Assembly (NCBI GenBank): GCA_026645935.1
Contig: JAPKMP010000016.1
Coordinates: 1-64,000 of the forward strand
Source of the DNA: Candidatus Villigracilaceae bacterium
Lineage (GTDB): Bacteria; Chloroflexota; Anaerolineae; Anaerolineales; Villigracilaceae
Reading direction: 5' to 3'
Length of the DNA stretch: 64,000 nt
The notes under the pieces were generated by a model. That model was given only the letters and a program-made list of their open reading frames with translations, was not told the DNA's origin and did not search any database. This document shows positions 42,631 to 55,242 of the stretch, in pieces. Every line of letters starts with the position of its first letter. Position 1 is the stretch's first letter. A program made the position numbers and the translations under genes.

Positions 42631-42656
42631 GGAACGCATTTTATGACCGCGCTGGG

Positions 42657-42662
42657 TATAAT
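42657..42662 (+). promoter_or_regulatory. -10 box of the FAD-subunit gene
   Basis: TATAAT 22 nt before the ATG at 42685, with GGAG (42671-42674) between them, giving a short normal leader. Confidence 0.45.
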
Positions 42663-42684
42663 CAAAGCCTGGAGACACAATACC

Positions 42685-43443
42685 ATGATCACCACCTATC
42701 ACAGACCCCAGACACTCGATGAAGCCCTCGCGCTTCTGAATCAACCGAACACCATGCCCCTCGGCGGCGGGACGCTTCTCTCCCGTTCCGCAGTGGATTC
42801 TGTTTCCGTCGTCGACCTCCAACACCTTGGGCTGGATTCGCTCCGCGCCAACGGCAGTGAATTCGTCATCGGCGCTACATGCACGCTTCAATCTCTGTAC
42901 GAAGACAGCAACTGTCCCAACCCGCTGAAAAACGCGCTCAAACTCGAAGCGCCGCTCAACATCCGGAATGCCGCCACCGTTGCAGGAGCCATCGTTGCAA
43001 GCGACGGCCGCTCCCCGTTCGTTACCATGCTCCTCGCGATGGATGCAAAAGTGGACTATAGTCCATTGACCGCGGGCAATCCAAAATCCACCGTCCTCGG
43101 TCTGGGCGAATATCTCCTCACCCGCCCGCGTGGACTTGTCACATCCATCACCATCCCACTCAACACCAAGAATGCCTTCCAATTCGTATCGAAAACCCCC
43201 GCCGATAAGCCTGTCGTCTGCGCAGCGTTGGCGCAATGGAACTCGGGCCGCACGCGGCTGACCCTGGGCGGATATGGCAAAACTCCCCTGCTTGCCATGG
43301 ACGGCACCGAAGCGAACGGTCTCGAAGAAGCGGCGATGAATGCCTACCACGAAGCGAACGATGAATGGGCATCCGCCGAGTACCGCATGGACTCCGCCGC
43401 GGTGCTGGCAAAGCGTTGTTTGGAATCCATTTCTCGCGCGTAG
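42685..43443 (+). CDS. FAD-binding subunit of a molybdenum hydroxylase (YgfM/CoxM-like)
   Basis: This encodes 252 residues from the ATG at 42685 (MITTYHRPQ), with GGAG 10 nt upstream; the frame is open 14 codons further. FAD_binding_5 marks are TMPLGGGTLLS (31-41), FVIGATCTLQSL, LNIRNAATVAGAIVASDGRSPFVTMLLAMDA and a CO_deh_flav_C end. This subunit takes electrons from the 2Fe-2S clusters of xanthine dehydrogenase-type enzymes and passes them to NAD+ or a carrier. In E. coli the matching ygfM is next to xdhD; here the only hydroxylase subunit in view is 13 kb downstream at 56175, its likely partner. Confidence 0.85.
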   Translation: MITTYHRPQTLDEALALLNQPNTMPLGGGTLLSRSAVDSVSVVDLQHLGLDSLRANGSEFVIGATCTLQSLYEDSNCPNPLKNALKLEAPLNIRNAATVAGAIVASDGRSPFVTMLLAMDAKVDYSPLTAGNPKSTVLGLGEYLLTRPRGLVTSITIPLNTKNAFQFVSKTPADKPVVCAALAQWNSGRTRLTLGGYGKTPLLAMDGTEANGLEEAAMNAYHEANDEWASAEYRMDSAAVLAKRCLESISRA

Positions 43444-43796: not shown

Positions 43797-44824
43797 AAGC
43801 CGCTGTCTTTTACGAATGCGGCGATGCTTCGAAGATCCGGATCGCCGAAGTCCCGATGCCTGAGATCAAGCCGGGACAGGTCTTGATTCAAATCCATGCC
43901 AGCGCGTTCAATCACCTTGAGTTATGGTCGCTGCACGGACCCGCCGACGAAACCTATCATTTCCCCATGTGGACGGGATCGGACATCTCTGGCGTGATCT
44001 CAAAGGTCGCGCCGGATGTGAAGGATTGGAAAGCGGGCGATGCGGTCGTGGTCAACCCGTCGCTTTCATGTGGAAAATGCGAACAGTGCCAGAGAGGAGA
44101 CGTCACTTTATGTGACGATTACGATATTCTCGGCTCGAACGGAGGCGGCGGCAATGCCGAATACATCGCAGCGAATGCGGACAAACTGATGAAACTCCCG
44201 CCGGGATTCGATTTCGTCACAGCTGCGGCGGCTCCCCTTGCGTACCAGACCGCCTGGCGAGCGATCGTTACGCGCGGAAGAATGAACAGCGGAGAGACCG
44301 TTCTGGTCCTGGGAGCAAGCGGCGGCGTGGCGGTAGCCGCGATCCAGATCTGTCACATGCTCGGGGCGAGAGTCATCGCGATCACCAGTTCATCCGAAAA
44401 GATGGAGAAGGCCAAACTTGCAGGCGCGGACTTTGCCGTGAACCGCAGTGAGGGCAAGCCCTTCGAGGAAGCGCTCAACTTCACCGGGGGGCGCGGCGTG
44501 GACGCGGTGATCGAGAACGTCGGCGCACTGACCTGGGACGACAGCCAGAAAATCCTCCGCAAAGGCGGGCGCATCATCACGTACGGGCGCACGACAGGGC
44601 GCGAAGCCACGACCAATCTTTCGCTGTTGTTCTGGAACGAGCAAACCCACATCGGCACGACGATGGGTAGTTTACAGGACTTCAAGGAGATGATGGAACA
44701 CGTCTTCGGCGGCAAGTTGACGCCCATCGTTGATTCGGTTTATCCGTTGGAGAAGGCAAGGGAGGCGTATGAACGGTATGAAAAGGGAGAGCAGTTTGGG
44801 AAGGTTGTGTTGAAAGTGAAATAA
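43793..44824 (+). CDS. MDR-family dehydrogenase lacking the catalytic zinc ligands
   Basis: This encodes 343 residues. The GroES-like N-terminal domain keeps the structural zinc site (CGKCEQCQRGDVTLC, about 95-109). The usual catalytic zinc ligands are absent: the GxCGTD-type block reads FNHLELWS, and the GHE block reads TGSDISG. The Rossmann domain has VLGASGGVAVAAIQICHMLGARV near 165-187 and ends YERYEKGEQFGKVVLKV. It therefore looks more like a quinone-oxidoreductase-type or other zinc-independent NAD(P)H reductase than an alcohol dehydrogenase. The nucleotide preference and substrate are not known. Confidence 0.85.
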   Translation: MKAAVFYECGDASKIRIAEVPMPEIKPGQVLIQIHASAFNHLELWSLHGPADETYHFPMWTGSDISGVISKVAPDVKDWKAGDAVVVNPSLSCGKCEQCQRGDVTLCDDYDILGSNGGGGNAEYIAANADKLMKLPPGFDFVTAAAAPLAYQTAWRAIVTRGRMNSGETVLVLGASGGVAVAAIQICHMLGARVIAITSSSEKMEKAKLAGADFAVNRSEGKPFEEALNFTGGRGVDAVIENVGALTWDDSQKILRKGGRIITYGRTTGREATTNLSLLFWNEQTHIGTTMGSLQDFKEMMEHVFGGKLTPIVDSVYPLEKAREAYERYEKGEQFGKVVLKVK

Positions 44825-44883
44825 ATCTTCCACTACATTTGCGCTTATTTTCCCAAACTCAAATATTCTCAATATCATCCACA

Positions 44884-44912
44884 TTGACTTAATCCCCCCC
44901 AGCCAATAAAAT
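44884..44912 (+). promoter_or_regulatory. Consensus-like promoter of the FHA redox operon
   Basis: TTGACT (44884-44889), a 17-bp spacer and TAAAAT (44907-44912), 10 nt before the ATG at 44923. The leader would be only about 3 nt. Confidence 0.65.
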
Positions 44913-44922
44913 CCCAATCCTG

Positions 44923-47898
44923 ATGAAATATATCATCATCGGCGATGGCGCGACCGGGACGACCGCGGCTTATTACATCCGCGCGGCGGAGAAGGACGCG
45001 TCCATCACCATCGTGTCCGACGACCCGAATCCCGCCTATTACCGCGCCGCGCTCACGAATTATTTACTGGGGGAGTTGCAAGAGTCTCAACTATTCGCCG
45101 TCCCTCCCGATTTTTACATAACAAACGAAATCGACCGCATCCTCGCGCGAGTCAACGCAGTGGATGTAAAGAGCAACAGGGTCACTCTCGCCGACGGGCG
45201 CGAGATCGAATATGACCGCCTATTGATCGCCAGCGGCTCCCGCCCTAACACGCCGACCTTTCCCGGCGCGGAACTTTCCGGCGTGATGACGATGCGCACT
45301 CTTCAGGACGTGCGTACTGTGCTGGATGGAATCCGATCGGGCAGGGTCAAACGCGCCGTGGTGGTGGGTGGTGGCCCGCTCGGGATCGAGTGGGTGCAGG
45401 GCTTGATGCGTTACAAAGTCCACGTGACATATCTTCTGCGCGGGGATATGTTCTTCGACCGCGCTTTGGATAAAACCGGCTCAGACCTTGTCATCAGCCG
45501 GTTGCGCGCCGAAGGGGTGGATGTGCGCCTGAACGAAGAGATCGCCAATGCCGTCGGCGATTGGAACGGGAAATTGAAAGCCATCCGGCTCAAGAACGCC
45601 AACCAGACCATCGACTGTCAACTCGCAGGAACCGCCATCGGCATCCGCCCGAACCTCGAATTCCTGCAAGACTCGGGCATCGAGATCGCCAAAGACGAAA
45701 AGCGCGGAATGCTCCTCGGTGTGACCGTGGATAAACACATGCGCACGAACGTCCCGAACGTCTATGCGGGCGGCGATGTAATCCACCGCACGCTCGGTTT
45801 GTGGGAACCGGCGCGTTTGCAGGGGCGCATCGCCGGGCGCAACATGACAGGCGCATCGGAGACCTATGAACCCGGCGAACATTATTTCGCCACCCGCCTG
45901 TACGACCTCGATTTTGCCAGCGTGGGCAGCATCAACGAGAAGCCGGGCGACCAGGTGCTTGTGGATTTCCCGCGCGGGAGCGGGCGCATTGCGTATCGGA
46001 AAGTGGTGATCCGCGATGGGAAACTTGCCGGCGCGCTCATGCTCGGTCAACGCAAGGAGAATGTGCGCAGGAACGGCTTTTTCTTCAAGAAACTGATAGA
46101 GAGGAAGACCGACGTCTCATCCGTGGCGGAACGGATGCTCGACCCGGAGTTCGACCTGCCCGGCTGGATCGACTCGCTCAATATGAGCAGCCAGGTGATC
46201 GCCGTCCGCAGCATGATCGCAACGTCGGCACTGCCCTCGCCCGCCAGCCTGCGCAAGAGCGAAATGACCAGCACGGGCAATACCTTTGCCGTCAAACCGC
46301 TAAAGGCTCCGCAAGCCGTTCTGAAAATGAACGGCTCGACCCATTCCATCGACGACGTTCTCACCATCGGGCGGAACGCGGAGAACAACGTCGTGATCAA
46401 GGAACCGCTCGTCTCGAGCCGCCATGCGCGCATCGAAAAACGCGGAGTGGCCTACTTCATTGTCGATAATAAAAGCACGAACGGCACATTCGTCAACGAG
46501 AACCGGATCGGGGAACCTCTCGCGCTCAAGGACGGCGACGTGATCGAGATCGGTCATACCACACTGAAATTTGCAGTCGAAGCCGAAGCGCACAAGACCA
46601 GCGTCCTGCCGGAGGAGATTCCGCTCGAAGCGCCGCCGCAGGAACACATCACACCGGGCGCGATCGAATACAACGGCAAGCGCATAGAACTGCAACACGA
46701 CACGATCACATTGGGACGCGATCCCGAAGCGACCATCCGCATCGACGACCCGACCGTCTCCTTCATGCATGCGCAGATCGCGCACCATGGCGAGCATCAT
46801 TACCTGCGCGACCTCGGAAGCCGCAACGGGACATTCGTCAACGACACACTCGTGGTCACGCCTTGCGTCTTGAATGACGGCGACGTCATCCGCATCGGCG
46901 CAGTGCGATTGAACTTCCACTCCGGAGCCGTTAATCCTGCTCCCGCGCCAAAACATGCAAAGACCGAATTCCTGCAAAGCGTAAAGGTCGAAAAATCGTG
47001 GGGGCAGTTGATCGCCTACTCCGGCTCGACCATCGGTTTGAGCTTTGCTCTCAAACCGCCTTCCGTGACGCTTGGACGCGACCCCGAATCGAACACGATC
47101 ACATTGCAGCACCAGACCATCAGCCGTGAGCATGCCCGCTTCGACTGGCGCGAAGACAAATGGTTCGTCACCGACCTGCAGAGCGCGAACGGAACGCGCA
47201 TCAACGGGACGCAGCTCGTGCCGAACAAGGAAAGCCCGATCGCGCCCGCCGACGAACTGCAATTCGGCGATGTCAAACTGGTCTTCGTCCCTTCCGCCGC
47301 ATCCGCCGGTTCGACGTCCGGTTTGCCGATGACCTTCGTGATCGAACCGGAGGAGGAAGCGGCTCCCGAACCTCCGCCCGCAAAGGTGGAGGAAAAGAAA
47401 GAAGCGCGAATCGAATCCGCGCAAGTCATCGAGAAGCCGAAACCGCCAGTTCAGAAATCCGCGCCGGAGGTTCCGGTGGATTCGAAGCCCGTCGTTCAGG
47501 ATTCTGCGGTGAAAGATTCAGCGAAGCCCCAGGCACCGGTTCAGGATTCCGCCCCGGGCGGAGTCGGAGGCGACGCGACGAACTTCATCCAGACCGCCTT
47601 CCCCACCCGCCTCACGGTTCTCGCCGGACCGGCAGTCGGCCGGGTCATCCTGCTGGTCAAACTTCCGCTGACGGTGGGACGCGCATCCACAGACGATGTG
47701 CAGGGACTCGACGATCCGCTTGTTTCGCGCCGGCACCTGAACATTGTGTTGAACCCGGATGGGACGATCGGGGCCAGCGACATCGGCAGTGTGAACGGCA
47801 CGTTCCATAACGGTATAAAACTTGAAGTCAATCAGGCCGTCGTATTGAACAAAGGCGACGAACTGCGTTTGGGCAGCACTGTTTTAAAGGCAGAGTGA
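44923..47898 (+). CDS. FAD/NAD(P)-dependent oxidoreductase fused to four FHA domains
   Basis: This encodes 991 residues. Residues 1-420 form a pyridine nucleotide-disulfide-type reductase with FAD motif IIGDGATGTTAA (5-16), LIASGSRPNTP, NAD(P) motif VVVGGGPLGIEW (147-158) and the FAD-binding VYAGGDVI block. It has no CxxxxC redox disulfide, so it resembles NirB/rubredoxin reductase. Four FHA domains follow at about 465-555, 577-666, 690-793 and 896-990. Each keeps the GR, SxxH and NGT residues that bind phospho-threonine (SSRH, SFMH, SREH, SRRH). A Pro/Ala/Val-rich linker precedes the fourth. The protein should feed NAD(P)H electrons to the Fe-S protein encoded 1 bp downstream and dock phosphorylated partners; no Ser/Thr kinase gene is in the window. 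Confidence 0.88.
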   Translation: MKYIIIGDGATGTTAAYYIRAAEKDASITIVSDDPNPAYYRAALTNYLLGELQESQLFAVPPDFYITNEIDRILARVNAVDVKSNRVTLADGREIEYDRLLIASGSRPNTPTFPGAELSGVMTMRTLQDVRTVLDGIRSGRVKRAVVVGGGPLGIEWVQGLMRYKVHVTYLLRGDMFFDRALDKTGSDLVISRLRAEGVDVRLNEEIANAVGDWNGKLKAIRLKNANQTIDCQLAGTAIGIRPNLEFLQDSGIEIAKDEKRGMLLGVTVDKHMRTNVPNVYAGGDVIHRTLGLWEPARLQGRIAGRNMTGASETYEPGEHYFATRLYDLDFASVGSINEKPGDQVLVDFPRGSGRIAYRKVVIRDGKLAGALMLGQRKENVRRNGFFFKKLIERKTDVSSVAERMLDPEFDLPGWIDSLNMSSQVIAVRSMIATSALPSPASLRKSEMTSTGNTFAVKPLKAPQAVLKMNGSTHSIDDVLTIGRNAENNVVIKEPLVSSRHARIEKRGVAYFIVDNKSTNGTFVNENRIGEPLALKDGDVIEIGHTTLKFAVEAEAHKTSVLPEEIPLEAPPQEHITPGAIEYNGKRIELQHDTITLGRDPEATIRIDDPTVSFMHAQIAHHGEHHYLRDLGSRNGTFVNDTLVVTPCVLNDGDVIRIGAVRLNFHSGAVNPAPAPKHAKTEFLQSVKVEKSWGQLIAYSGSTIGLSFALKPPSVTLGRDPESNTITLQHQTISREHARFDWREDKWFVTDLQSANGTRINGTQLVPNKESPIAPADELQFGDVKLVFVPSAASAGSTSGLPMTFVIEPEEEAAPEPPPAKVEEKKEARIESAQVIEKPKPPVQKSAPEVPVDSKPVVQDSAVKDSAKPQAPVQDSAPGGVGGDATNFIQTAFPTRLTVLAGPAVGRVILLVKLPLTVGRASTDDVQGLDDPLVSRRHLNIVLNPDGTIGASDIGSVNGTFHNGIKLEVNQAVVLNKGDELRLGSTVLKAE

Positions 47899-47899
47899 C

Positions 47900-49693
47900 A
47901 TGACTTTGGATTACATCGAGGAACTGCGGATCGGAGTCGAACGCGAGGTGATGGCGTGCATCGGATGCAACGACTGCATGCTCGCCTGCCCGCTGCCTGA
48001 AAAGGCGCGCGTGACAATCGCGGAATTGAACGCGGGCGTGCTGGCAGACCGCATCACTTCGGTGACTGTGATCAATTTCGTGACTGCCTGCACGCAATGC
48101 CAGCAGTGCATCCCGGTCTGCCCCGCGAACCTGCACCGCGCCGACATGGTCTTGTGGAACAAGATGAAGGTGGAGCATGTGGCGCCGGACCGCCCGATGC
48201 CTTTGCAGGTGGGTTCGCAGGTCGTGCAATCCAACTGGACCATCGACAGCCTCGCGCGTCAATTGGTCAACTATCAATTGTTCAACGGCGTGCCGGTGGA
48301 ACACCTGCGGCGGATGTTGTTGAGCTGCACCCTGAGACAGCTTGCCGAAGGCGAGACCCTCTGCCGCGAAGGCGAATTCCACGAACGGCTGTACATCGTA
48401 TTGGAAGGCGAGATCGAACAATCGGTCTCGACCGCGACCGGCAGCAATATGCGCATCCTGGTGCTGACCGCCGGCACCTTCCACGGCGAGATGGGCGTGC
48501 TGAGCAACCTCGCCGAGGGCTACAACCTGGTGGCGATGCAAAAATCCATCGCGCTGGAGATGCCCAAAGCCACCGTCCACCGCATGATGAAGGAACTCAC
48601 GGCGTTCAAGGCGACGATGGACGAACTCTACCGCCGCCGCGCCTTATGGACATACGCCATCCGTTCGCCGCTGTTCAAGTCCGTGCCGGAGTCGGCTGTC
48701 GAAGGATTGTTGAACGATGCCAACCTGCGAATCTTCCGCGCGGGCGAGGTCATCTACCGCGAAGGGGAATCAGGCGGCGACCTGTGCCTCGTCCAGGCGG
48801 GGTATCTGCGCGTATCGCGCAAACACTTCGACTCGGAACTTGTCGTCCAGTACTACCGCGAAGGGGATATCTTCGGCGCGTCTTCGATCTTATTCAAGCA
48901 GCCGCAGTCCACAACAGTGACAGCCAACACCCGCGCCGACGTGGTCTTCATCCCCGCCGCAAGCGTGCTTGCCCTGCTGGAGAAATACCCCGACCTGCGC
49001 TCGCGCCTTGTGGAAGAGGCTTATAAGAGCGATCAACTGCTCAGGCTTGCCCAACCCCAACAAAAGGAAACCTCCACAACGGGCATGGCGGGCATCCAGA
49101 CCATCCAGGAGAACATCTCGCTCAGGGCATTGATGGACCAGGGCGTGATGCAGGCGCACGAGATCCTCGTGATCGACACCGCCACATGCACGAACTGCAA
49201 CAACTGCGTGGACGCCTGCGGGCGGCGTCACGGCAATTCGCGCCTCGAACGGCGCGGCTTGCAGATGGGCAACCTGCTCTTCCCGACCGCCTGCCGCCAC
49301 TGCGAAGACCCGGTCTGCCTGTTGTGCTCGGTCAACGGCATCGTCCGCAAACCGGACGGCGAGATCAGCATCGTGACGGAGAACTGCATCGGCTGCGGCG
49401 CATGTTCGGAGCGCTGTCCGTACGGGAATATCCAAATGCATGACCGACACAAGGAAAGCGGGTTCCTGCTGCCGATGCTGCAATCACTGGGGTTGAAGAA
49501 AGCGGAAAACCACCTGCGTGACCGCGTGGCGGTGAAGTGCAACCTGTGCGAAGGCTACGACGATTATGCCTGCGTGCGCGCCTGCCCGGTCGGCGCGGCG
49601 ATGCGCATCGACCCGGTGGAGCAGTTCAAGCGCGAAGACCTGAACGTCGGTCTGGAAATGAAGAAACAGGGCGGACGACAGGCGGCGGGATGA
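47900..49693 (+). CDS. Ferredoxin-like protein with two cyclic-nucleotide-binding folds
   Basis: This encodes 597 residues. Two [4Fe-4S] motifs come first: CIGCNDCMLACP (about 20) and CTQCQQCIPVCP (about 64). Two CAP/cNMP-binding folds follow at about 125-235 and 250-365. A four-cluster DMSO-reductase-beta-type ferredoxin domain ends the protein: CTNCNNCVDAC (about 430), CRHCEDPVCLLC, CIGCGACSERCP and CNLCEGYDDYACVRACP. By eye, the phosphate-binding cassette of the first fold keeps Glu (GEMGVLS) but lacks the Arg; the second (FGASSIL) lacks both, so cAMP binding is doubtful. There is no DNA-binding HTH. It probably wires the FAD protein to the membrane cytochrome, under ligand control. It overlaps the cytochrome gene by 4 bp. 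Confidence 0.88.
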   Translation: MTLDYIEELRIGVEREVMACIGCNDCMLACPLPEKARVTIAELNAGVLADRITSVTVINFVTACTQCQQCIPVCPANLHRADMVLWNKMKVEHVAPDRPMPLQVGSQVVQSNWTIDSLARQLVNYQLFNGVPVEHLRRMLLSCTLRQLAEGETLCREGEFHERLYIVLEGEIEQSVSTATGSNMRILVLTAGTFHGEMGVLSNLAEGYNLVAMQKSIALEMPKATVHRMMKELTAFKATMDELYRRRALWTYAIRSPLFKSVPESAVEGLLNDANLRIFRAGEVIYREGESGGDLCLVQAGYLRVSRKHFDSELVVQYYREGDIFGASSILFKQPQSTTVTANTRADVVFIPAASVLALLEKYPDLRSRLVEEAYKSDQLLRLAQPQQKETSTTGMAGIQTIQENISLRALMDQGVMQAHEILVIDTATCTNCNNCVDACGRRHGNSRLERRGLQMGNLLFPTACRHCEDPVCLLCSVNGIVRKPDGEISIVTENCIGCGACSERCPYGNIQMHDRHKESGFLLPMLQSLGLKKAENHLRDRVAVKCNLCEGYDDYACVRACPVGAAMRIDPVEQFKREDLNVGLEMKKQGGRQAAG

Positions 49694-52170
49694 AAAAACG
49701 AATCCAACTGAAACGACGATACGGCTTGTTGGAGCGGGCTCTTCCCTGGATCGGAATCAGCCTGGTCCTGCTCTGCATCTGCTCCCTCGGCATGTTCCTC
49801 TCGATGAATTTCATCCGGTACATGCTGGAGACGACACGCGTTTCGATGCTGATGTTGGTTTCGGCGCTGGGCGCCCTGGTCGTTTTGCTTTCCGTGATCG
49901 TGGGATTTTACAGCGCGCGCAAACGAATGCTTCAGGAAAAGCTGCCCGGCACGATGATGTCCTGGCTCAAGTCGCACATCTATCTCGGTTTGCTCGCGTT
50001 CGGCCTGGCGCTCGTGCATGCGTTCATCGCCATCGTCAAAGCGGAGCCCTCGGGAGGCAGTATTTCGCTGGCGGTCTTCCTCATCTTAGTCATCAGCGGC
50101 ATCCTGTGGCGACTGGTCTATCTCGCCTTCCCACCCGTGGTCGCGGATTCGGTCGGGAACCTGGCGGTTAAAGATACCAACGCCAAGGCGCATCTTGTAC
50201 AAGTGGAGATGGATAAACTTGTGGCGGGGAAATCGTCCGAATTCCGGCGCGGAGCGATGGAGGGGGCGAAATCCGGCAAATGGAAGCGGATCGAATCCAG
50301 CCTGCGCCTGCCGCCCGAGGAAACCGGCGACTGGGAAAACTGGAAGCGCCACGCCGACCGGCTGATCCGTTACGCCCGCCGCGAGCGCGCGCAAAAAATC
50401 TACGCCGCCTTCATGCAGGGATGGAAATGGCTGCACATCCCGCTTGCCATTATTTTCTTATTCATCGTCTCGTTCCACGTCCTCGAAGTCTTCACCAATG
50501 TCAGCACGCCGGCTCACGGGGCGTTGACCGGCTTGCCGCCCGCGACGGAATGCAAGCGCTGTCACGCCGATATCTATGAAGAATGGAGCGTGAGTATGCA
50601 CTCGGGGGCTCAAAACGGACCGGTCGTCGTCGCGCAGACCATCATGGCGCTGGAAAAACATCCCGAGTTCGGGCGCGCCTGCAACAACTGTCATGCGCCC
50701 ATCGGCACTGCCATCACGCAAGAGGTCATCCTGCCGTTGGATGCGGAGAACGTCTTCCGCTCGGAGCCGAACGGTGGAGTGATGGACGAGGGAGTCACGT
50801 GCATCGTCTGTCACACGCTGCCAACCGCCCCGGAGGAAAGGCGCGGGATGGCGGACCAGTTCCCGGTCGCGGTCGGAGGCGCAAAATCCTTCGCGGATAT
50901 GTTCGGTCCCTCGCTGGGGGAGACTCCGGCACTGCCGAACGTCTGGCACGAATCCAAGACCGGATTCATGACCGATAACGTTTCCTCGTCGCGTTTGTGC
51001 GGCTCGTGTCATAACGTCAAAGTGGACATCGACGGCGACGGCGAGGTTACCGCCTTCCCCGGCAGCGACGGGAGTTTCAGCGACCTGGATGAAGACAACC
51101 AGCTCGACGAGAACGAACTGGAGTTCGATGAAGAGGGACGGCTGGAAGACCTCGTGCTGCAAACGACGTTCGATGAATGGGAGGACTACGTTGCGCTGCA
51201 AGAATCGCGCGGACAGCCCGCGCTCGGCTGTGTGGACTGTCACATGCCGCAACTGCCAAATGGACCCGTCGTCTCGCCGGAGTCCGGCTACCCATTCCCC
51301 ATCGCCCAGGAACGCGAGCGCCAGTCGCATACGTTCGTCGGCGTGGATTACGACCTCGCGCCGGACCGATATACGCCCGAACAATTCGAGCACGTCCAGG
51401 AGGAGCGCGAGGCTTTATTGAAGTCCGCCGCCAGCCTGACCGTTGACCTGGCGCACAACCCCGAGGACGGGACCATCACCGCCACAGTCACGATGCGCAG
51501 CAATCTTGTCGGTCACAGCCTGCCGACCGGCTTTGCATTTGCGCGGCAGATGTGGTTGGAGGTCTCGGCTGTGACTGCGGACGGCGAACCGGTCTGCCTG
51601 ACCGACATCGATACGGAATTTGGCACGATCGGCGCACAATGCGCCTCGGGCGTGATCGAAACCCCGCAGGACGACCTGCTGACATGCAATCCGCTGTCGG
51701 TTCCGAGATTCGGAATCAAGCCAAGCAAAAATGACGAACTGATCGTGCTGAACAAAGATGCCGTGGCACCGATCGAGGATTGCGACCCCTGGCTGGCGAA
51801 CTTCCAAAAAGTGCTGACTGAACCGATCGGGAGCGTTTTCTTCGAGAAGCCGTACCAGACCCCCGCCGCGGACATCGTCAAAACCCGCGTGCGCGTCAGC
51901 GACGGGCAGGCGATGGATGCGATCAATCCGACCATCCTCGTGAACGGACAGGTGCGCGATTCGGCGTCGTTTGATTATGTATTCGATGCGGCAGAACTCT
52001 CCAGCGAACAGATCGTCGTGAATGTGGTCTTCCACTTCCGCCACCTGCCGCCCTACTTCGTGCGCGGACTGGAAGATTATTATCCCGAAGGCATCACGCC
52101 GGATATTTTGTTGCAAAACATGACGGTGATCGATATGGCAGAAGCGTCCGAGGATATTCGGTTGCCGTAG
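49690..52170 (+). CDS. Membrane cytochrome with five c-type heme sites
   Basis: This encodes 826 residues from the ATG at 49690, overlapping the previous stop; an upstream in-frame extension is shadow. Five hydrophobic helices lie in residues 1-270, two of them with His residues suitable for b-heme (SHIYLGLLAFGLALVHAF and WLHIPLAIIFLFIVSFH), as in ferric-reductase or cytochrome b domains. The extracytoplasmic part has CxxCH motifs CKRCH (about 288), CNNCH (330), CIVCH (370), CGSCH (436) and CVDCH (513), and resembles cytochrome c554-type proteins. The remaining 300 residues are beta-rich. It likely passes electrons from the cytoplasmic Fe-S protein across the membrane to an outside acceptor, which is not identified. 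Confidence 0.87.
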   Translation: MKKRIQLKRRYGLLERALPWIGISLVLLCICSLGMFLSMNFIRYMLETTRVSMLMLVSALGALVVLLSVIVGFYSARKRMLQEKLPGTMMSWLKSHIYLGLLAFGLALVHAFIAIVKAEPSGGSISLAVFLILVISGILWRLVYLAFPPVVADSVGNLAVKDTNAKAHLVQVEMDKLVAGKSSEFRRGAMEGAKSGKWKRIESSLRLPPEETGDWENWKRHADRLIRYARRERAQKIYAAFMQGWKWLHIPLAIIFLFIVSFHVLEVFTNVSTPAHGALTGLPPATECKRCHADIYEEWSVSMHSGAQNGPVVVAQTIMALEKHPEFGRACNNCHAPIGTAITQEVILPLDAENVFRSEPNGGVMDEGVTCIVCHTLPTAPEERRGMADQFPVAVGGAKSFADMFGPSLGETPALPNVWHESKTGFMTDNVSSSRLCGSCHNVKVDIDGDGEVTAFPGSDGSFSDLDEDNQLDENELEFDEEGRLEDLVLQTTFDEWEDYVALQESRGQPALGCVDCHMPQLPNGPVVSPESGYPFPIAQERERQSHTFVGVDYDLAPDRYTPEQFEHVQEEREALLKSAASLTVDLAHNPEDGTITATVTMRSNLVGHSLPTGFAFARQMWLEVSAVTADGEPVCLTDIDTEFGTIGAQCASGVIETPQDDLLTCNPLSVPRFGIKPSKNDELIVLNKDAVAPIEDCDPWLANFQKVLTEPIGSVFFEKPYQTPAADIVKTRVRVSDGQAMDAINPTILVNGQVRDSASFDYVFDAAELSSEQIVVNVVFHFRHLPPYFVRGLEDYYPEGITPDILLQNMTVIDMAEASEDIRLP

Positions 52171-52248
52171 AGACCTCCTTCATAAAACGGGGTACACTTA
52201 AGCAGCAGAAATAAGCAAGCATCGAGAGACGAGTAACAAATTACGCTT

Positions 52249-52276
52249 GCGTTATGCATTTCGCGTTTCTCGTTTT
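52249..52276. repeat. Heptamer array GCGTTTC-like x4
   Basis: Units GCGTTAT, GCATTTC, GCGTTTC and TCGTTTT, 28 nt in total. Confidence 0.55.
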
Positions 52277-52302
52277 ACACACTCCGCAAAACTCCAAAAC
52301 AC

Positions 52303-52323
52303 TCTCCAACTACCAATCACCTA
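52303..52323. repeat. Heptamer array TCTCCAA-like x3
   Basis: Units TCTCCAA, CTACCAA and TCACCTA. TCTCCAA is a rotation of the reverse complement of GGAGATT, the unit found at 10106-10126. Confidence 0.45.
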
Positions 52324-52338
52324 CCCCAAAGGACCCCC

Positions 52339-55242
52339 ATGCCCAAATCATTCACCCTGATCAAAGAACAGCAAATCCCCGAGATCAACTCCCATGTACA
52401 ACTGTACGAACACAAGCGCACCGGGGCGAGGCTGCTCTCGGTCATCAACGACGACGAGAACAAGGTCTTCAGCATCAACTTCCGCACGCCGCCGAAGGAT
52501 TCGAGCGGCGTGGCGCACATCCTCGAACATTCGGTGCTGGGCGGCTCGGAGAAGTACCCGGTCAAGGAACCGTTCGTGGAACTGGTGAAAGGCTCGCTGG
52601 CGACCTTCATCAACGCCTTTACCTATCCCGACAAGACCTGTTACCCCGTGGCAAGCCAGAACGAAAAGGATTTCTACAACCTGATCGACGTGTATATGGA
52701 CGCGGTCCTGCATCCGCGCATCGACGAGCAGACCCTGATGCAGGAGGGCTGGCATTATGAAGTGGAAGACGATGCGCTGACCTACAAGGGCGTTGTCTTC
52801 AATGAAATGAAGGGTGCGTATTCCTCGCCGGAGAATTTACTGGCGCGCACCATCCAGCAATCGCTCTTCCCGAAACACCTGTACGGAGTGGATTCGGGCG
52901 GCGACCCGGCGAACATCCCCGACCTGACTTACGAAAATTTCCGCGGGTTCTGGGAGTCGTATTATCACCCGTCCAATTCGTTCATCTTCTTCTACGGCAA
53001 TGACGACCCTGAGAAACGCTTGAAATTGATGGAAGGTTATTTCAAGCCGTATAAAAAGAAGAAGGTCAAGTCCGCGGTGCCGATGAGCAAGCCGTTCAAG
53101 AAACCGAAGAAGGTCGAGACCTCCTACATCGCCAGCGAAGGCGAGGAGATCGAGAACAAACATTACCTGACCGTCAATTGGAAGTTGACCGACACCTTCG
53201 ACCCCGTCCTCACGCTCAGCTTCCAGATCCTTTCGCACACGCTGATCGGCACGCCCGCCTCCCCGCTCCGCAAGGCGCTGCTGGATTCGGGTCTCGGCGA
53301 AGACCTTGCCGGGGGCGGACTCGAAACCGAACTGCGCGAGATGTACTTCTCCACCGGGTTGAAAGGCACGCGCGCCCGCAGCGCGAAGAAGGTCGAAACG
53401 CTGATCTTCGATACCCTGCAATCCCTCGTCACAGACGGCATCGACCCTGACATGACCGCGGCTTCGATCAACACCATCGAGTTCGCCCTGCGTGAGAACA
53501 ACACCGGCTCCTTCCCGCGCGGAATCGGGCTGATGCTGCGCGCGCTGACCACATGGTTGCACGACGACGACCCCTTCAAAGTGCTTGCCTTCGAAGCGCC
53601 ATTGGCTGATATCAAGAGTCGACTCACCAACGACTCGCGCTACTTCGAGAAGTTGATCCAGACGTATTTGCTGGAGAATAATCACCGGACGACCCTGCGC
53701 TTCAAACCGGACCCGGAATTGGGTCAGCGCCTCGAGGCGGAGGAGAAGTCCCGGCTGGAATCTGCCAGGTCCGCGATGAGCGCGGATGAGATCCGCAAAC
53801 ACGCCAATAATGCGGAAGAACTAAAAGCGAGACAGGAGACTCCCGACTCTGCGGACGCATTGGCGACCATCCCGACCCTCGAACTGAAAGACCTCGACAA
53901 ACAAGCCCGCACGATCCCCATCGAAGAGATCCAGGTGCAGGATGCGAAAGTCCTTTATCACGACATCTTCACCAACGGCATCCTCTATCTCGACATCGCC
54001 TTCGACCTGCGCGCCATGCCGAAGGAACTGCTCCCGCTGACGGAGGTCTTCGCGCGCGCGTTGTTCGAGATGGGCACCGAGACCGAAGATTACGTCAAAC
54101 TCTCGCAGCGAATCGGCAAAAGCACCGGCGGAATCCACGGCACATCGGTCAGCCTGACAAACCTCCCCACGAAAGAGGCGCAGGCGCATTTGATGATCCG
54201 GGGCAAGTCCACGGTGAGTCAAAGCCAGGAGATGCTGTCCATCCTGAGGGACGTCCTCCTGACCGTGAAGCTCGACAACAAGGAACGCCTCAGGCAGATC
54301 GTCCTCGAAGAAAAATCCGGCGTGGAGTCGGCGCTGGCGCCCGCCGGGCATCGCTTTGCGAACATGCGCCTGCGCTCGCAGTTCGGCGGCACAGGCTGGA
54401 TCAACGACCAGACGCGCGGCGTGGGTTATCTTTTTGCATTGCGCGAACTTGCGAACGACATCGACAAGAACTGGAAGAGGGTGCTCGAAAAAATGGAAGC
54501 GATGCGCGAGTCGCTCATCAATTGCAAGACGATGATCGCGAACGTCACGCTCGATGAGGCGAATTGGAAGACGGTCCGCCCGCATGTTGAGAATTTCATC
54601 TTCGCCATGCCGGTCAGGGATGCAACGCGTTGGAATGTGGAAGCAAAAACCTCCATGCAAAAAGAAGGGCTGGCGATCCCGGCGCAGGTCAACTACGTGG
54701 GGAAAGGCGCGAACCTTTTCGACCTTGGCTATGAATATGACGGTTCGGCGCAGGTCGTCATCGGCTATCTCGGCATGACGCATCTTTGGGAGAAGGTCCG
54801 CGTGCAGGGCGGCGCGTACGGCGTCTTCGCCCAACTCGACGACACGACCGGCGTGTTTACCTACCTCTCGTACCGCGACCCAAACGTGGATGACACCATC
54901 AAGAGTTATGATGCCGCGCCGGCCTTCCTGAAAGGGCTCGAGTCCTCCCGGCTGTCGGATAACGAGTTGAAGAAAGCCGTCATCTCGACCATCGGCGAAC
55001 TGGACGCCTATCAACTGCCCGACGCGAAAGGCTACACGTCCATGATGCGCCACCTCACCGGCCGCACCGACGACATGCGGCAGAGAATCCGCGACCAGGT
55101 CCTCTCCACGAACGGAGAAGATTTCCTCGCGTTCGGCGAGGCACTGGAGAAGGCGATCAGGTCTGATGCCGTGGTCGTGGTCGGCACTCAATCCGCGCTG
55201 GAAGGTTCGAAGGAAAAATTGAAGATCACGAAGGTTGCATAG
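52339..55242 (+). CDS. M16C-family zinc metalloprotease (PreP/insulinase-like)
   Basis: This encodes 967 residues with the length and order of presequence-peptidase-type M16C proteases. The inverted zinc motif HxxEH is HILEH in SSGVAHILEHSVLGG (about residue 59), and the distal Glu lies in YKGVVFNEMKGAYSS. PVKEPFVELVKGSLATFINAFTYPDKTCYPVAS follows. The central M16C-associated domain (about 470-700) and the inactive second M16 half (RVQGGAYGVFA near 823) complete the chamber. It degrades short unstructured peptides, probably in the cytosol as no signal peptide is seen. An AAAGGA ribosome binding site lies 5 nt before the ATG. Confidence 0.95.
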   Translation: MPKSFTLIKEQQIPEINSHVQLYEHKRTGARLLSVINDDENKVFSINFRTPPKDSSGVAHILEHSVLGGSEKYPVKEPFVELVKGSLATFINAFTYPDKTCYPVASQNEKDFYNLIDVYMDAVLHPRIDEQTLMQEGWHYEVEDDALTYKGVVFNEMKGAYSSPENLLARTIQQSLFPKHLYGVDSGGDPANIPDLTYENFRGFWESYYHPSNSFIFFYGNDDPEKRLKLMEGYFKPYKKKKVKSAVPMSKPFKKPKKVETSYIASEGEEIENKHYLTVNWKLTDTFDPVLTLSFQILSHTLIGTPASPLRKALLDSGLGEDLAGGGLETELREMYFSTGLKGTRARSAKKVETLIFDTLQSLVTDGIDPDMTAASINTIEFALRENNTGSFPRGIGLMLRALTTWLHDDDPFKVLAFEAPLADIKSRLTNDSRYFEKLIQTYLLENNHRTTLRFKPDPELGQRLEAEEKSRLESARSAMSADEIRKHANNAEELKARQETPDSADALATIPTLELKDLDKQARTIPIEEIQVQDAKVLYHDIFTNGILYLDIAFDLRAMPKELLPLTEVFARALFEMGTETEDYVKLSQRIGKSTGGIHGTSVSLTNLPTKEAQAHLMIRGKSTVSQSQEMLSILRDVLLTVKLDNKERLRQIVLEEKSGVESALAPAGHRFANMRLRSQFGGTGWINDQTRGVGYLFALRELANDIDKNWKRVLEKMEAMRESLINCKTMIANVTLDEANWKTVRPHVENFIFAMPVRDATRWNVEAKTSMQKEGLAIPAQVNYVGKGANLFDLGYEYDGSAQVVIGYLGMTHLWEKVRVQGGAYGVFAQLDDTTGVFTYLSYRDPNVDDTIKSYDAAPAFLKGLESSRLSDNELKKAVISTIGELDAYQLPDAKGYTSMMRHLTGRTDDMRQRIRDQVLSTNGEDFLAFGEALEKAIRSDAVVVVGTQSALEGSKEKLKITKVA

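Follow-up and report, generated by a model that had tools for sequence, protein, structure and literature searches.

A candidate phospho-gated electron-export module combining FHA, CNB, iron-sulfur and heme domains in an Anaerolineales bacterium

The DNA analysed here (the window) is a stretch of 64,000 nucleotides from Candidatus Villigracilaceae bacterium, a member of Anaerolineales (Chloroflexota; assembly GCA_026645935.1, contig JAPKMP010000016.1, positions 1 to 64,000 of the forward strand). It carries three adjacent genes, called P1, P2 and P3 below, which probably encode a complex exporting electrons from the cytoplasm across the membrane. The genes and their promoter are as follows.

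44884..44912, + strand: sigma-70-like promoter TTGACT-17-TAAAAT, matching the consensus in 10 of 12 positions and ending 10 bp before the ATG of P1
44923..47898, + strand: P1, FAD/NAD(P)H reductase with four FHA domains, 991 amino acids
47900..49693, + strand: P2, [4Fe-4S] protein with tandem CNB domains, 597 amino acids
49690..52170, + strand: P3, diheme-b membrane domain fused to a pentaheme c domain, 826 amino acids

P1 and P2 are separated by a single base pair (47899), and P3 overlaps the P2 stop codon by 4 bp (ATGA). This tight packing and the consensus promoter had been pointed out in an earlier note made from the sequence, and both are borne out, the former by the coordinates of the open reading frames (ORFs). 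The note's picture of a three-gene unit needs two corrections: the start codon of P3, and a set of paired histidines in P3 which it overlooked (see below). P3 is best started at ATG 49690, giving the same length as in the homologues from loci L025 and L097; GTG 49537 is too early and lies inside P2. Five sigma-70-like sites were found in the region, compared to 2.2 (standard deviation 1.4) in shuffled sequences. The promoter box of P1 is kept in L097 and L025, and in L026 it reads TTGACT-17-TAGAAT. Its short distance to the ATG suggests that the P1-P2-P3 message would be nearly leaderless. Ratios of nonsynonymous to synonymous substitution rates are 0.101, 0.055 and 0.078 for the three genes in comparison with L097 and 0.167, 0.064 and 0.15 in comparison with L026. 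Since the ratios stay within 0.055-0.167 against both relatives, all three genes are under purifying selection, and together with the conserved gene order and composition this marks the module as more than a chance arrangement.

P1 consists of a redox domain followed by the FHA repeats:

44923..45825, + strand: Pyr_redox_2 domain (Pfam E 3.4e-51)
46363..46554, + strand: FHA1 (E 7.3e-22)
46705..46899, + strand: FHA2 (E 2.9e-20)
47065..47268, + strand: FHA3 (E 3.3e-18), preceded by a T-x-F-L site (T681)
47671..47874, + strand: FHA4 (E 1.4e-13), preceded by a T-x-F-I site (T886)

The GxGxxG motifs for FAD (residues 7-12) and NAD(P) (residues 149-154) and the four FHA domains (Pfam E 3.8e-75), all of which had been recognised earlier, are supported by both Pfam and the motif residues. 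The redox domain matches NADH oxidases, ferredoxin reductases and the flavoprotein of the aldehyde oxidoreductase 8c0z. The only cysteines of P1 are C232 and C648; they do not form a pair, and C232 would lie outside the usual active-site region. Assignment of P1 to pyridine-nucleotide disulfide reductases was rejected because the active-site cysteine pair is missing. As P1 lacks such a pair and belongs to the group of NADH oxidases, ferredoxin reductases and PadH-like proteins, its flavin should hand electrons over to P2.

The electron donor is probably NADPH. Where the NAD(P) strand ends, P1 has Leu172-Arg173 in place of the Glu-Met found in the NADH enzymes 6pfz and 8c0z, and these positions are occupied by Leu/Ile/Val-Arg in all 11 aligned P1 homologues. 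Such a pair is the NADPH-type pattern of glutathione reductase. It argues for NADPH only modestly; the same pattern is present in chain 5l1n, a CoA-disulfide reductase presumably of P. horikoshii.

P2 has a tandem of CNB domains flanked by iron-sulfur regions:

47957..48121, + strand: N-terminal dicluster region, C20-C30 and C64-C74 (Pfam Fer4 models, cysteine motifs)
48275..48637, + strand: CNB-A, with Gly-Glu kept and Glu206 at the position of the phosphate-binding Arg
48656..49021, + strand: CNB-B, lacking both Glu and Arg
49187..49585, + strand: C-terminal HydN/DmsB-like four-cluster domain, C430-C562

Four complete CX2CX2CX3C motifs and two split ones (C465/468/473/476 and C547/550/558/562) make six potential [4Fe-4S] sites, and all 24 motif cysteines are invariant in 10 of 10 aligned rows. 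Pfam detects two cNMP_binding domains (E 7e-33) and several Fer4 models, so the six motifs around two cNMP-binding folds described earlier are confirmed. The C-terminal part matches HydN, DsrO and HycB-type proteins. Structural matching of the P2 model also recovered the tandem CNB arrangement, the best matches being regulatory subunits of PKA. A match to family-2B encapsulins was rejected, as it covers just the CNB part and scores 73 bits against a cut-off of 400.

The phosphate-binding cassette was compared with that of CRP. In the window, L026, L027 and L028 the Arg of CNB-A is replaced by Glu, and CNB-B lacks both residues; CNB-A with Gly-Glu and Arg together is kept only in six rows of a second, more distant family. 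Since the Arg which binds the phosphate is either Glu or absent, control of the window's P2 by cyclic nucleotides is unlikely. The small-ligand control proposed in the earlier note is thus weakened as far as it implied a cyclic nucleotide. In trypanosomatid PKA regulatory subunits a Glu spatially replaces this Arg and nucleosides take the place of cAMP, according to PMC10959531. By analogy, the window's CNB domains may bind a ligand that lacks this phosphate, or none at all; this is only a lead, because the Glu of P2 occupies a different sequence position from the kinetoplastid one.

P3 includes a membrane part and an outer part:

49750..50493, + strand: five-helix membrane domain with the HX13H pairs H96/H110 and H249/H263
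50551..51243, + strand: five CxxCH heme c sites, located after the last helix
51418..52167, + strand: beta-rich domain at the C-terminus (low-confidence model), whose GH-x-LPTG motif (H609) is invariant and shared with T. tepidum c552

The hydrophobic helices span approximately residues 21-39, 53-71, 97-115, 125-143 and 250-268, and the CxxCH sites start at residues 288, 331, 371, 437 and 514, in agreement with the five helices and five sites counted earlier. Two HX13H pairs in helices classically indicate a pair of b hemes within the membrane. H96, H110, H249 and H263 are conserved without exception in the 12 proteins aligned. Of the window's stop-to-stop frames with 120 codons or more (156 in all), one other frame besides P3 shows a double hydrophobic H-x(11-14)-H pattern, and there one short segment is counted twice. 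The membrane domain gives nothing more than sub-threshold DUF4405 matches (E 0.0055 and 0.0077), and the standalone diheme-b proteins of L030 and L093 have no NCBIfam match at 1e-5. The distribution of charges points to a cytoplasmic location of the N-terminus and the 144-243 loop, which would place the c hemes outside. With the diheme-b histidines bridging the iron-sulfur clusters and the c hemes, the predicted path from NAD(P)H through FAD, six [4Fe-4S] clusters and two b hemes to five c hemes becomes continuous.

The best sequence match of the c domain is 5ze8, the T. tepidum cytochrome c552 (E 1.7e-6), which is also the top Foldseek match of P3 and the one sensible match there (E 4.9e-3, from a poor model). 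The ExtKL model matches P3 with E 5.6e-9 and 35 bits, below its cut-off of 250. In PMC11976967, ExtKL, Gsu2801 and pentahemes of cable bacteria are grouped together and found similar to T. tepidum c552 and to the archaeal nanowire protein AvECN. The paper also counts sPHC and lPHC as potentially catalytic cytochromes having a pentacoordinated heme. Two cytochrome c assembly-type proteins are encoded in the genome to which the window belongs.

This resemblance raises the possibility that the outer domain of P3 is itself a terminal reductase of the pentaheme c552/NrfA or PHC type, making the module a self-contained respiratory unit for a soluble substrate. Weak NrfA matches (E about 4e-4) agree with it, as do the invariant histidines of the outer part not belonging to CxxCH sites: there are four distal-type ones (H304, H420, H547 and H609, conserved in all 6 sequences) against five hemes, and one c heme may therefore be open and catalytic rather than a relay. 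All five sites are, however, of the CxxCH type, with no sign of the CxxCK active-site motif of NrfA, and the scanned neighbouring genes do not indicate a substrate. We regard a reductase of this kind as rather unlikely.

Given the observed domain content, conserved ligands, gene linkage and the gene fusions described below, we favour the interpretation of P1-P2-P3 as a phospho-gated transmembrane complex that exports electrons from the cytoplasm, and consider it reasonably probable. The flavin of P1 would take a hydride from NAD(P)H, probably NADPH, and P2 would pass the electrons along its six clusters, if these are filled, to the two bis-His b hemes of P3, from which the five c hemes on the outer face could deliver them to an acceptor outside the cell. 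Once a Ser/Thr kinase has phosphorylated P1 or a partner protein, the complex may be recruited or locked by P1's FHA domains, and the tandem CNB pair of P2 may serve as a second allosteric joint.

The module is rare in its own order and conserved in gene arrangement. A search for P2 in 400 Anaerolineales genomes, including the one studied here, found it in 6 genomes at 7 places: the window, L097, L096 (which contains L026), L070 (which contains L027), L069, L068 and the place G643:C6 inside L025. P1 precedes and P3 follows P2 at all seven places; in L068 both are cut by contig ends. Among same-genus genomes named in the order-level table, three besides the window's own have the module and at least 20 do not. 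One genome possesses a second, diverged copy on a short contig, with P2 domains 54-70% identical to those of the window; this concerns L067 (G679:C62) and L068 (G643:C62), two loci of identical DNA sequence. In a sample of the phylum P2 matches were found in 15 of 301 genomes, own one included (E 1e-40). Four of these matches (L020-L023) belong to other families. Those of L020-L022 are CNB and HydN-type iron-sulfur proteins of 479-501 amino acids lacking both the N-terminal dicluster and the module neighbours; the matching region of L021 contains one TAG, and L023 was not resolved by the ORF filter.

In the second family P2 is present in 18 of 29 genomes at 23 places, of which 13 (12 genomes) were examined together with their flanks. 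P1 is located directly upstream of P2 or fused to it in all 13 loci. The two form a single ORF in L032 (1384 amino acids), L033 (1397) and L034 (at least 1169), and this fusion supports a physical complex of P1 and P2. The copy in genome G164 is interrupted by stop codons. In all 11 loci where the contig continues, P2 is followed by a diheme-b protein of 286-329 amino acids without CxxCH.

The absence of c hemes from this family's membrane subunit, which stops after the diheme-b domain, would suit a device similar to NADPH oxidases (NOX), in which the b hemes reduce O2 to superoxide or peroxide, or another small outside acceptor, and c hemes are optional. The HX13H pattern also resembles that of ferric reductases and NOX. 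A pentaheme c domain is nevertheless present in the window version and likewise in a deltaproteobacterial genome, and no NOX or ferric-reductase homology of either the membrane or the FAD/NADPH domain was found among the Pfam, NCBIfam and PDB matches listed, DUF4405 being the only, sub-threshold, hit. Such a device is about as doubtful in our opinion as the terminal reductase.

The proposed export complex has more distant relatives. In the deltaproteobacterial genome G676 (locus L028), P1 with two FHA matches adjoins P2, which is 52% identical to that of the window overall, and the contig also encodes a P3 homologue with five CxxCH sites at a distance of about 18 kb. Eleven of 282 genomes of this phylum match at E 1e-50; G676 and nine others (L087-L095) were examined, and G737 was left out. 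Each of the nine loci L087-L095 encodes a tandem CNB and a HydN-type domain and contains a frame that has two HX13H pairs; eight have an FHA match (not L090) and seven a downstream multiheme stretch with at least six CxxCH (not L090 and L091). Raw CxxCH counts can be spurious in these GC-rich loci; Pfam cytochrome domains are found in L089, L092 and L093. In L091 and L093 one protein combines FHA, the FAD/NAD(P) reductase, two CNB domains and clusters. L088 has two genes, one for CNB-CNB-clusters-b and the other for FHA-c hemes-Fer4-FAD reductase. Similar module parts thus recur in different gene orders in this phylum. FHA domains, tandem CNB, clusters, HX13H pairs and multiheme stretches occur in reshuffled form at positions 8533-14156 of L088, 8356-14472 of L087 and 6175-12093 of L093, and one type of protein in these loci appears to carry FHA, c hemes and the Fer4-FAD reductase in a single chain.

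The recurring core consists of P1, P2 and the diheme-b protein. The Anaerolineales version and a single deltaproteobacterial genome also showed the pentaheme end-piece. The earlier note would have been refuted by homologues in which the three genes are never linked; they have instead repeatedly been found linked or fused. The electron-export chain proposed there is strengthened by the recurring core and by the invariant diheme-b histidines.

Phosphorylation enters the model through the FHA domains. Their GR...S..H...NG signature is intact in all four domains of the window and in 28 of 29 across 11 aligned P1 proteins (window included), with the second FHA of L028 being the sole exception. FHA domains prefer pT-x-x-I/L; T681 and T886 fit this preference and can be named, speculatively, as the first candidates for an intramolecular switch. 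Both sites are kept in L097 and L026 and are absent from P1 of L027 and L069. The own genome encodes 13 kinases, none of them on the contig of the window, and scans of the window, L097, L096, L026 and the short contigs L025 and L068 detected no kinase motif. L027 has kinases on both sides of the module and a further FHA gene upstream of P1; in L069, which belongs to a different genus, an FHA gene lies before the module and two kinases after it. Pfam confirms Pkinase for both L069 kinases and two of those in L027, and FHA for both FHA genes. Control by Ser/Thr phosphorylation, as proposed in the earlier note, therefore has indirect support from the intact FHA residues, the kinases of the genome and those beside the module in two relatives.

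The additional FHA proteins, located directly upstream of P1 (L027 3601-5571, L069 1688-3673), are about 660 amino acids long and have no other named Pfam domain above the cut-off. The name VWA-FHA was dropped for them since Pfam detects no VWA domain at E 1e-5. By eye, the L027 protein has a signal-like N-terminus and a hydrophobic helix before FHA; perhaps it is a membrane sensor of the same system.

The kinases and the other FHA protein next to the module in these two relatives, as well as the large cytoplasmic signalling domains, could also mean that the chain is a sensor, its redox state being read through FHA and CNB into kinase signalling with no export function. This is the least credible of the alternatives: fourteen predicted redox centres (FAD, six clusters, two b and five c hemes) make an expensive sensor, and it is the c hemes that are dispensable in relatives, not the reductase and the clusters.

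Direction is a separate matter, since it is not fixed by the sequence. The outer c hemes might accept electrons from minerals, partner cells or sulfur or nitrogen compounds, with the chain reducing NAD(P)+, and the T. tepidum relative is called low-potential in the title of a 2019 paper. Uphill transfer of this kind would require a driving force, and the module contains no ion-pumping subunit to provide it; nor do the scanned neighbours (a glycine transporter-like gene, FAD_binding_5, zinc dehydrogenase and M16 peptidase) include an obvious oxidase of an outside donor. We consider reversed flow improbable, if slightly less so than the sensor.

Outward transfer under phospho-control remains the preferred interpretation. 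In addition to the possibly open c heme, several observations weigh against it. AlphaFold2 models of P3 and P2 are weak in the parts that matter (mean predicted local distance difference test score 46.7 and 56.6, respectively), which leaves b-heme geometry and the contacts between the three proteins hypothetical. The fold match of P3 to 5ze8 is poor (TM-score 0.13/0.25, with no match at E <=0.001), and a Foldseek search with the weak model gave no convincing structural match for the P3 membrane domain. In L087-L095 the diheme-b profile is weak (E 9e-6 to 1.2e-3 in six of nine loci) or absent (three of nine), and homology in the reshuffled loci depends mostly on the HX13H pattern for this reason. 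Of the seven Anaerolineales places just two have kinases next to the module, a scan of 12 second-family loci detected no kinase motif, and the low frequency of the module in the order, given above, belongs on the same side.

More tentatively, we speculate that these modules represent a so far undescribed class of signal-gated transmembrane electron valves found in more than one phylum, in which an iron-sulfur and heme wire from NADPH to the exterior would be opened by Ser/Thr phosphorylation through FHA and tuned by the tandem CNB pair. In the lineage of the window the cyclic-nucleotide signature of this pair is lost, and its ligand may be a nucleoside or another compound lacking that phosphate. 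Chloroflexota and Myxococcota-like genomes would then have fused the same set of parts differently.

The module is located between the genes of a zinc dehydrogenase and an M16 peptidase. This interval (44824-52339) is variable across sister genomes: the module is found there in L097, L109-L113 have other, unidentified ORFs, and in L114 the zinc-dehydrogenase gene was not resolved by the ORF filter. This supports the view of the module as an accessory cassette at a variable site. Comparison of the interval in sister genomes for a mobile insert revealed no insertion ends. Further upstream, positions 42643-43443 encode an FAD_binding_5 protein of the molybdenum-hydroxylase medium-subunit type without a partner subunit among the scanned neighbours.

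Known routes of extracellular electron transfer are generally assumed to start from the quinone pool, with control at the level of gene expression. If the proposed mechanism is correct, NAD(P)H would be drained straight across the membrane under kinase control, a new switch for extracellular respiration or redox balance and a bioenergetic target for the bacterial Ser/Thr kinase-FHA system. The module would be a prokaryotic analogue of regulated NADPH oxidases built of other parts, and it could show whether CNB domains gate electron flow through iron-sulfur clusters.

Searches of an open-access library aimed at the three-gene combination found no description of it, consistent with the earlier statement that no named system has it. 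The NCBIfam matches considered were the best 25 of 59 for P1, the best 25 of 65 for P2 and both for P3. Among these, only FhaB and TagH pass their cut-offs, both with P1, but their best stretches cover just the FHA repeats and these names were rejected.

Several known systems resemble parts of the module. The aldehyde oxidoreductase 8c0z, which we take to be a tungsten-dependent enzyme with an iron-sulfur wire subunit, has an NAD(P)H flavoprotein of the P1 type (chain E, E 3.8e-27). In phenylglyoxylate dehydrogenase, the PadH model matches P1 (E 7.8e-45) and the HydN-like PadI model matches P2 (E 8.7e-10), both below the cut-off. To our knowledge, these complexes lack FHA and CNB domains as well as b hemes in the membrane and c hemes, and the three genes here, unlike them, include neither a catalytic tungsten nor a ketoacid subunit. 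PHC family proteins (ExtKL, Gsu2801, T. tepidum c552) share with P3 five CxxCH sites and a beta-rich C-terminal domain with H-x-x-PTG. What sets P3 apart from that family is the diheme-b membrane domain to which its c domain is fused, and the coupling to an NAD(P)H reductase in the cytoplasm. Tandem CNB domains are shared by P2 and PKA regulatory subunits, including the nucleoside-binding trypanosomatid ones with Glu near the position of the cAMP phosphate, but the pair of P2 is embedded in a cluster protein and its Glu takes the sequence position of the Arg itself.

NOX and ferric reductases resemble the module in overall design. They use cytoplasmic NAD(P)H and FAD, have two transmembrane b hemes held by His pairs about 13 residues apart, transfer electrons outwards and are regulated by phosphorylation in eukaryotes. 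P3 likewise has two bis-His pairs in transmembrane helices. In contrast to them, the module relies on a Pyr_redox_2-type flavoprotein, an iron-sulfur wire from flavin to b hemes, outer c hemes and FHA and CNB domains. Overall, each part is known, while the assembly, its spread and its fusions appear to be undescribed: transmembrane NAD(P)H-driven electron export is of a known kind, and what appears to be new is the combination of parts and the way in which they are fused.

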